Source: Dermabacter indicis
GTDB lineage: Bacteria > Actinomycetota > Actinomycetes > Actinomycetales > Dermabacteraceae
Direction: 5' to 3'
NCBI GenBank assembly: GCA_001403775.1
Contig: CYUG01000012.1
Location: 1 to 64,000 of the forward strand
DNA: 64,000 bases
This document shows, piece by piece, positions 47,185 through 48,765 of this stretch; position 1 is the stretch's first letter; every line of letters starts with the position of its first letter. The position numbers and the translations under genes are program-made. The notes beneath the pieces are model-generated. The model ran no database searches, was not told the DNA's origin, and saw only the letters and a list, made by a program, of their open reading frames with translations.

Positions 47185-47224
47185 CGGGCACCGGCCCAAC
47201 CGTGAAGGCTGAGGCCGGTGCCCG
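47185..47224 (-). terminator. original terminator of tRNA-Ser, now displaced
   Basis: A perfect 12-bp inverted repeat (CGGGCACCGGCC and its complement) with a 16-nt loop. On the minus strand it is followed by TTTTT. Without the insertion element it would start about 8 nt after the tRNA 3' end. The element now separates the two by 1.4 kb. Confidence 0.75.
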
Positions 47225-47230
47225 CTCAAT

Positions 47231-47245
47231 CCGCGGAGGATAGGG
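47231..47245. repeat. 15-bp target-site duplication, left
   Basis: CCGCGGAGGATAGGG, identical to 48678-48692 at the other end of the element. It duplicates the last bases of the tRNA-Ser gene. Confidence 0.9.
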
Positions 47246-47391
47246 TGTCCGAGGTCATGACATATTTGACGGGGTGTGCCTGGGGAAGGCGTTGTGATCC
47301 TTGACAGGTCAGTCGCGTCACTGTTGACACTTAGGGTTACCTCACTCGTGTCGGTGACGCTTGACTGGTGAGTCGGGACATGGTTGACACC

Positions 47392-48585
47392 ATGAACAGT
47401 CCCAACCGCAACCTCGCCATCGTCAGAGCCGTTCAAAACCAAGGCGGCACACCCACCAACGTCGCCAAACGCTTTGGCATCTCACGCCAACGCGTCCACC
47501 AGATACTCAACGCCTACGACGCAGGCGGCGCCGAGGCAATCGCACCGAAATCACGTGCCCCTCACACCCACCCACACGCGGTACCGGACGCGTTGCGCAA
47601 CGAAATCATCGATATCCGCAAACAGCTCACCCGGCACGGACTTGACGCAGGACCCGAAACCATCGCCTACCACCTCGAACAGGCCGGCAAACGCACCCCG
47701 TCAACTTCGACGATCCGTCGCATCCTCACCAACGAAGGCCTGATCACCCCGCAGCCGCAAAAGAAGCCAAAAAGCTCCTACATCCGCTTCGAGGCCGCAA
47801 TGCCCAACGAATGCTGGCAAGCCGACATCACCCACCTCTTCCTTGCCGACAACACACGCATTGAAGTCCTCGACTTCCTCGATGACCACTCGCGATACCT
47901 GTTGTCAATCACCGCGGCCGCCGCATTCACAGGCCCCGCCGTCGCCGCCGAACTCACACGCTTAATCCACACATACGACCCGCCAGCATCCACGCTTACG
48001 GACAACGCACTGGTATTCACCGCACGCCTAGCCGGACGCAAAGGTGGGAGAAACGCTTTCGAAAAAGTGCTCGTCGCACACAAAATCCAACAGAAAAACG
48101 GCCGGCCAGGCCACCCTCAAACCCAAGGAAAAATTGAGCGGTTCCACCAAACCCTCAAAAAATGGATTAAAGCCCGACCCCCAGCACAAAACATTGATGA
48201 GCTGCAACAACTCCTCAATGAGTTTCGCCAATACTACAACTGCACCCGACCCCACCGCGCCCTGGGCAGACGCACCCCACAGCAGGCATACACCACCGGA
48301 GTCAAAGCCACACCCAACAACAACCCCAAAGAAGAATGGCGAACCCGAAACGACACAATCGACAAAAACGGCAAAGTCAGCGTGCGCTACGCCGGCAAAC
48401 TTTTCCACCTCGGCATCGGACGCGCCTACAAACACAAGAAAATTCTCATGGTCATCACCGACAACCACATCATCACATCACTGGTTGAAACCGGAGAAGT
48501 ACTCACCGAGCACTACATCGACACCGCCCGCGACTACCAAAAGGCCTACTGGAAACACGGCGACCCACCGCTCTACCCCAAATGA
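47392..48585 (+). CDS. IS481-family transposase
   Basis: DDE transposase (397 aa from 47392). The N-terminal helix-turn-helix is TNVAKRFGISRQRVHQIL, followed by an HTH-29-type region. The rve integrase core has Asp145 in WQADITH, Asp204 in LTDNALVF and Glu249 in QGKIERFHQTLK. Starts at 47368 (GTG) or 47380 (ATG) are also possible and lie inside the second internal repeat, so the transposase may bind its own promoter region. Codon use is richer in A-ending codons than in neighbours, fitting a foreign element. Confidence 0.93.
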   Translation: MNSPNRNLAIVRAVQNQGGTPTNVAKRFGISRQRVHQILNAYDAGGAEAIAPKSRAPHTHPHAVPDALRNEIIDIRKQLTRHGLDAGPETIAYHLEQAGKRTPSTSTIRRILTNEGLITPQPQKKPKSSYIRFEAAMPNECWQADITHLFLADNTRIEVLDFLDDHSRYLLSITAAAAFTGPAVAAELTRLIHTYDPPASTLTDNALVFTARLAGRKGGRNAFEKVLVAHKIQQKNGRPGHPQTQGKIERFHQTLKKWIKARPPAQNIDELQQLLNEFRQYYNCTRPHRALGRRTPQQAYTTGVKATPNNNPKEEWRTRNDTIDKNGKVSVRYAGKLFHLGIGRAYKHKKILMVITDNHIITSLVETGEVLTEHYIDTARDYQKAYWKHGDPPLYPK

Positions 48586-48591
48586 ACAAAA

Positions 48592-48626
48592 CCGGCACCC
48601 CAGAACAAAAACAACTGGGATGCCGG
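48592..48626 (+). terminator. terminator of the transposase gene
   Basis: CCGGCACCCCAG, 11-nt A-rich loop, CTGGGATGCCGG, beginning 6 nt after the transposase stop. There is one G-T type mismatch. Confidence 0.7.
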
Positions 48627-48677
48627 CCCGTCCAGCATGTCGCGACTCATGCGTCAAGCATGACGCGACTCATGACA

Positions 48678-48692
48678 CCGCGGAGGATAGGG
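48678..48692. repeat. 15-bp target-site duplication, right
   Basis: CCGCGGAGGATAGGG. Positions 48681-48692 are also the 3' end of the tRNA-Ser gene, so the duplication restored an intact tRNA. Confidence 0.9.
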
Positions 48693-48765
48693 GATTTGAA
48701 CCCCTGAGGGCGTGAACCCAACACGCGTTCCAGGCGTGCGCCATAGGCCGCTAGGCGAATCCTCC
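48681..48765 (-). tRNA. tRNA-Ser (GGA)
   Basis: An 85-nt type II tRNA. The acceptor stem pairs GGAGGAT with ATCCTCC; the anticodon stem-loop is CACGC-CTGGAAC-GCGTG with anticodon GGA. It has a long variable arm, a TTCAAATC T-loop and discriminator G. CCA is not encoded. Its 3' end abuts the IS481 element, and transcription from it now runs into the transposase gene antisense. A serine tRNA near ffs-dnaX-recR is a conserved arrangement. Confidence 0.95.

Follow-up and report, generated by a model that had tools for sequence, protein, structure and literature searches.

In a 64,000-nucleotide stretch of Dermabacter indicis DNA (positions 1 to 64,000 of contig CYUG01000012.1, hereafter the window), an insertion sequence (IS) of the IS481 family at 47246-48677 stands at the rebuilt 3' end of a tRNA-Ser(GGA) gene. 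There is strong reason to regard this copy as a member of a clade of tRNA-targeting IS481 elements, in which a self-contained transposase of the aspartate-aspartate-glutamate (DDE) type would recognise the T-arm and acceptor part of the tRNA gene as a safe and universal target. This reading is carried by the site and orientation of the insertions, the target duplication, the empty site in related genomes, the conservation of the pattern across the clade and the enrichment of hairpins at the end that faces the tRNA. A broader statement also appears probable: that a single-gene DDE lineage reads the T-arm and the acceptor 3' strand of almost all tRNA genes as a safe target, regenerates nucleotides 62-76 and brings a terminator with it, and that two separate IS481 lineages do so in opposite orientations and different registers. 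No account of tRNA-targeting IS481 elements was found in the openly readable literature (ISfinder lay outside the scope of the search), so that an earlier mention is possible.

The insertion at tRNA-Ser(GGA)

The 15-mer CCGCGGAGGATAGGG is present twice in the window, at 47231-47245 and 48678-48692, and the two copies flank an element of 1432 bp which has TGT...ACA ends and runs from TGTCCGAGG to ACTCATGACA. The element carries one transposase open reading frame (ORF) of 405 amino acids at 47368-48585, which is the sole ORF of note, no accessory gene being seen within the element in the ORF list. An intact tRNA-Ser(GGA) gene on the minus strand adjoins the right end, at 48680-48765 according to ARAGORN and 48681-48765 according to Infernal, and 12-13 of the 15 duplicated bases are derived from it. 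The native terminator hairpin of this tRNA (-40.5 kcal/mol, z -7.3, T5 tail) now lies beyond the far side of the element, 1.4 kb away. The features of the locus, with the basis for each, are as follows.

47185-47224, minus strand: native tRNA-Ser terminator hairpin, split from the tRNA by the element (12-bp perfect inverted repeat; folding energy; directly downstream of the tRNA at the empty sites of two congeners)
47231-47245, no strand: left (tRNA-distal) copy of the duplication, with a 12-13-nt remnant of the tRNA 3' end (repeat comparison)
47246-48677, plus strand: IS481-family element, 1432 bp, TGT...ACA (eight identical copies in the genome)
47246-47390, plus strand: left end, with the terminal TGTCCGAGGTCATGACA and further repeats of the GTC...TTGAC type, candidate transposase binding sites (sequence reading; partial inverted-repeat match to the right end; binding putative)
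47368-48585, plus strand: transposase, 405 amino acids, with two helix-turn-helix (HTH) domains, an RNase H DDE core and a C-terminal beta-barrel (NF033577; Pfam rve, rve_3 and HTH; AlphaFold; PDB fold matches)
48591-48627, minus strand: hairpin that faces the tRNA and has a T-rich tail, candidate for a replacement terminator (folding energy; enrichment in relatives)
48629-48677, no strand: right end, two 23-bp direct repeats (91% identical) ending in ...CATGACA, candidate transposase binding sites (repeat family)
48678-48692, no strand: right copy of the duplication, equal to tRNA nucleotides 62-76, which restores the tRNA 3' end (repeat and junction comparison)
48680-48765, minus strand: intact tRNA-Ser(GGA) (ARAGORN; RF00005, 50.1 bits)

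The two ends of the element have TGTC in common and are alike in about 12 of their first 18 bases when read inward, and a subterminal inverted match between them reaches 83% over 18 nt. A promoter scan gave no match.

In two congeneric genomes (loci L244 and L245) the element is absent, the joined flanks align at 94% straight across the site, the 15-mer occurs once only, and the terminator lies close behind the tRNA. Because the congener sites are empty in this way, with a single 15-mer and a terminator close to the tRNA, insertion and tRNA rebuilding are demonstrated at tRNA-Ser(GGA). An earlier, sequence-only reading of the locus had proposed the IS481 identity, the 15-bp target duplication, the rebuilt tRNA and the displacement of the tRNA's own terminator, had pointed to element-free relatives as the place to check them, and had held that a related genome with the 15-bp repeat and no element between its copies would speak against insertion. 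The family, the duplication, the rebuilt tRNA and the displaced terminator are borne out, and the two congeners confirm the insertion.

The family assignment rests on a score of 257.3 bits against the NCBIfam IS481 model NF033577, for which the cut-off is 224, while the transposase falls below the cut-offs of the IS3, IS21, IS630 and ISNCY models. It contains the Pfam domains rve, rve_3 and HTH, and its DDE triad (D153, D212 and E257) is invariant in an alignment of 12 sequences. An AlphaFold model built from 12 sequences, in which the arrangement of the domains is uncertain (predicted local distance difference test score 76.8, predicted template modelling score 0.48), predicts two N-terminal HTH domains, an RNase H DDE core and a C-terminal beta-barrel; the best fold matches in the PDB are IstA (of IS21), TnsB and MuA, with retroviral integrases also among the top ones. 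The element resembles other members of the IS481 family in its DDE transposase above the cut-off, its TGT...ACA ends and its single ORF, and its length is within the 1-1.5 kb expected of the family. The IS481-family element ISLxc2 of Leifsonia has the target NCTAGN (PMC2516522), whereas the window element duplicates 15-16 bp at tRNA 3' ends in a fixed orientation. Its membership of the family is unaffected by the lack of an NCTAGN target, since that target is a habit of some members and not a family-wide rule.

Site and orientation in the host genome and in clade A

The host genome (2.23 Mb in 17 contigs, with 46 tRNA genes) holds eight copies of the element, each of 1432 bp and with zero mismatches. 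Seven of the eight share one orientation and one insertion base, each at the 3' end of a different tRNA gene: Ser(GGA), Ser(CGA), Arg(ACG), Leu(TAA), Gly(CCC), Val(TAC) and Arg(CCG). Beyond the right end, all seven show 15-16 duplicated bases and, next to these, GNNT(C/T)GAAC, which is complementary to the T-loop sequence GTTCRANNC. In standard tRNA numbering, the cuts are read as falling at nucleotide 61/62 on one strand and at nucleotide 76 or 77 on the other. The chance that a random insertion would hit this base in this orientation is about 1e-5, given 46 tRNA genes in 2.23 Mb. The local anatomy of the tRNA-Ser locus alone would be compatible with an isolated accident, in which an unremarkable IS481 element struck the 3' end of the gene by chance, and the sequence-only reading had treated it as a one-off, although it also suggested a search for the same target in other copies. 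That search yields the seven copies described here, which, together with the pattern across the clade given below, refute such an accident and leave its probability negligible. Because seven of eight identical copies share one base of different tRNA genes, chance is excluded as the cause of the placement.

The closest relative of the element, at 95%, is L046 in Corynebacterium sp. HMSC05H05, and on the tree the window element groups within elements of Corynebacterium. No close copies were found in three congeners of the host. Since the eight copies are identical and the sites are empty in congeners, the sequences point to a recent arrival and a burst in the host; the arrival was possibly by transfer between actinobacterial families.

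A search of about 1,270 genomes of the same phylum, together with one scan of genome contigs, produced about 170 loci. Clade A is defined as the 111 loci whose transposases are at least 38% identical, leaving out a side group (L089, L169-L172), and it forms one branch with a support value of 100 in the Shimodaira-Hasegawa-like approximate likelihood ratio test (SH-aLRT) in a tree of 77 rows. TGT...ACA ends are general among its elements. Sufficient right flank is available at 103 clade A loci, 88 of which join a tRNA or a tRNA remnant: ARAGORN places an antisense tRNA at the right end of 73, and a further 15 show the exact T-loop junction motif in partial or degenerate tRNAs. The tRNA species targeted number 24. 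Both copies of the duplication were recognised in 50 clade A elements and are identical over 15 nt in 45 of them, and the distance from C61 to the junction is 15 nt in 39 and 16 nt in 35 of the 78 cases measured. Single genomes can carry several such insertions, as in G652, with four copies at tRNA-Arg, Tyr, Ala and Ser, and G479, with four at tRNA-Pro, Ser, Ala and Ser. A copy on a plasmid (L243) and a copy on a provirus contig (L250) obey the same rule.

The precision of this pattern bears on the possibility that insertion is nearly random and that only harmless sites such as tRNA 3' ends persist. Survivorship of this kind is plausible to the extent that the insertions leave the tRNA intact, usually with a hairpin, and should therefore be tolerable. 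Precision to a single base and a single orientation is nevertheless beyond the reach of selection, neutral intergenic insertions elsewhere would be expected to be common, and other IS481 groups obtained through the same sampling have no tRNA at either end, with the exception of clade B (described below). Survivorship is accordingly a very improbable explanation. The same observation about the other groups rules out tRNA adjacency as a general trait of IS481-like elements.

Tandem copies occur at one tRNA in L085, L112, L121 and also L058, which shows that the rebuilt target site is open to renewed insertion. Tandem or adjacent copies at one tRNA or in one array are seen in these four loci and in L161, and imply that there is no strong target immunity. 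Elements at five loci (L057, L061, L116, L134 and L243) adjoin 3' tRNA remnants, which may be the distal attachment sites of islands or tRNAs that were broken later; such elements could reveal if insertion requires an intact tRNA.

The right end of the window element contains, on the tRNA-sense strand and about 45 nt from the tRNA, a stem-loop followed by a T-rich tail (-31.7 kcal/mol, z -5.5; -19.7 on the other strand). The region between the transposase stop codon and the right end was surveyed in 66 clade A elements, which include near-identical copies and are therefore not all independent, and compared with 198 intragenic control segments of the same length. A hairpin of -12 kcal/mol or lower is present in 59 of the 66 elements and 48 of the 198 controls, while one that also has a U-rich tail (at least five T in the next 12 bases) is present in 27 elements and two controls. 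The position of the hairpin is kept among elements while its sequence varies. This enrichment at a kept position in differing sequences argues that the element substitutes a terminator of its own, so far a predicted one, for the displaced one. With this hairpin between the tRNA and the transposase, long antisense read-through from the one into the other is unlikely; the sequence-only reading, which expected antisense transcription of the transposase from the tRNA, is therefore probably wrong on this point, given a strong hairpin and T-rich stretch about 45 nt inside the right end.

Proposed mechanism and choice of target

In the mechanism proposed here, a single DDE transposase would bring the two asymmetric TGT...ACA ends to the T-arm and acceptor part of a tRNA gene and would cut the target strands about 15 bp apart, beside C61, where the T-loop GTTCRANNC has just ended, and at the CCA position (nucleotide 76) or one base further on. 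Gap filling would then duplicate nucleotides 62-76, so that the tRNA at the right end is complete and the left end retains a copy of the former 3' tail. The orientation is fixed, with the right end facing the tRNA and the transposase antisense to it, and the right-end hairpin would take over from the displaced terminator, probably ending transcription there. A target that virtually all tRNA genes conserve and that insertion restores would let the element spread to many tRNA genes, or to the same one repeatedly, with little harm; insertion would on this account be close to harmless. The selector of the target is presumably the transposase, since the element has no other gene, and recognition would then be by the transposase itself. 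The unequal ends, with the left repeats on one side and the two 23-bp repeats on the other, would suit an orientation-specific complex. Residues specific to clade A lie at about 144, 157, 167, 298 and 341-350 (numbering offset by one), and they single out no target-reading domain.

Several observations weigh against this account. The eighth copy in the host genome (L008, at about 335937-337371 of G000:C11) lies at a site that is not a tRNA and has a clean 15-bp duplication, GCGGGTAAGAACGTA. A hidden tRNA site was considered for this copy and rejected, since ARAGORN finds no tRNA there and the flanks have no T-loop at the junction. Target specificity is thus strong, yet not absolute, because L008 has a clean duplication without a tRNA. 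About 15 clade A loci likewise have no tRNA at the right end; several of these are either truncated or still flanked on the left by a tRNA 3' tail (L050, L059, L133), and L162, counted among them, is in fact at a tRNA-Pro tail, while L051 is located in coding-like sequence. The U-tailed hairpin is found in 27 of the 66 surveyed relatives and not in all. Finally, the T-loop is conserved for the sake of tRNA function, so the bases recognised cannot be read from its conservation.

What is recognised can be narrowed by counting. The host genome contains 106 occurrences of the T-loop 11-mer GGTTCRANNCC and 46 tRNAs, which disfavours the 11-mer as the whole target; since it far outnumbers the tRNAs, what is read is probably either a longer site or some property peculiar to tRNA genes. 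The same counts lend some weight to the possibility that a host factor or a feature of the tRNA gene (a bound processing enzyme, RNA polymerase or a T-arm cruciform) locates the target in place of a transposase that reads DNA, since all seven targeted copies are at tRNAs (p about 0.003 if the motif alone sufficed), and the dif hunters of the IS1202 family are suspected of using bound XerC (PMC10132070). A longer DNA site that includes the T-stem would also account for the counts, and the copies at 3' tRNA remnants suggest that insertion may not depend on tRNA expression, although the tRNAs could have been disrupted later. Host-directed targeting is, on this evidence, unlikely but not remote. 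Guidance by RNA, as with the seekRNAs of IS110/IS1111, could in principle produce targeting across tRNAs by sequence. Those systems combine a DEDD enzyme with a non-coding guide RNA, whereas the window element has a DDE rve core, and the T-loop motif is absent from 4.8 kb of non-coding DNA in 41 elements, 35 of 35 internal matches being in coding sequence; an RNA guide is for these reasons scarcely credible.

Phages and genomic islands classically dock at tRNA genes by means of tyrosine integrases, and the islands and integrative and conjugative elements that insert at tRNA 3' ends through these integrases also rebuild the 3' end. They differ from the window element in their enzyme and in relying on recombination between attachment (att) sites, with no duplication from staggered strand transfer. 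In function, the window element comes closest to the ISAjo2 group of the IS1202 family, the dif hunters, which are single-protein DDE insertion sequences that insert in fixed orientation, 5 bp from the XerC side of dif/pdif sites, and duplicate 5 bp (PMC10132070). Both have TGT/ACA termini, additional binding sites close to the termini (candidates only in the window element) and an HTH-HTH-DDE-beta-barrel architecture, but the window element is at tRNA sites and has 15-16-bp duplications, where the ISAjo2 group has dif/pdif sites and 5 bp. Tn7-like elements, including CRISPR-associated transposons, use tRNA att sites through TnsD/TniQ or a guide RNA (PMC11406308). They resemble the window element in DDE chemistry, TGT/ACA ends, the use of tRNA genes as safe sites and a related TnsB-like fold, but they employ a TnsC AAA+ regulator and a separate TnsD/TniQ selector, whereas the window element has one gene only. 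The eukaryotic Dada DNA transposons also have a DDE enzyme and are inserted inside tRNA and small nuclear RNA genes (PMC3706591); unlike the window element, they produce 6-7-bp duplications, and each family is confined to its own RNA gene, the targets being multicopy. If the reading is true, a one-protein DDE insertion sequence that unaided finds this place in 24 or more tRNA species and many actinobacterial genera would be the simplest tRNA-targeting transposon known, and it might serve as a tool for low-harm insertion at sites found in every bacterium. For annotation, copies from this clade mark tRNA genes and their remnants.

Clade B and other IS481-like groups

A second set of 13 loci, clade B (L097, L101, L103, L180, L181, L190, L192, L202, L205, L206, L209, L211 and L212), has transposases that are 28-33% identical to the window protein and lies in a separate part of the tree. 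Its orientation is opposite to that of clade A: here a tRNA lying upstream of the left end points the same way as the transposase. About 8 nt separate the tRNA 3' end from the start of the element, and the duplication, where resolved, is 12-18 bp (mostly 15-17) and takes in the last 7 or so tRNA bases. Between the two clades on the tree are IS481-like elements without tRNA neighbours. Two independent origins of tRNA targeting within IS481 are likely, though not proven, because the tree cannot separate gain from loss. The two lineages permit a comparison of how a DDE transposase acquires its target.

Two further groups show regularities of their own. Five IS481-like elements with transposases of about 600 amino acids (L098, L099, L100, L198 and L199) share in their left flank, about 35 bp beyond the element end, the motif GCCTTGA...GTA.AGAAA, which suggests that these too have a specific target, perhaps where a coding gene ends. 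A different IS481-like element is represented by two copies (L178 and L179) that lie inside inverted repeats, for example TTGTGTGGCTGAGGGGA / TCCCCTCAGCCACACAA, as if hairpins were the target.
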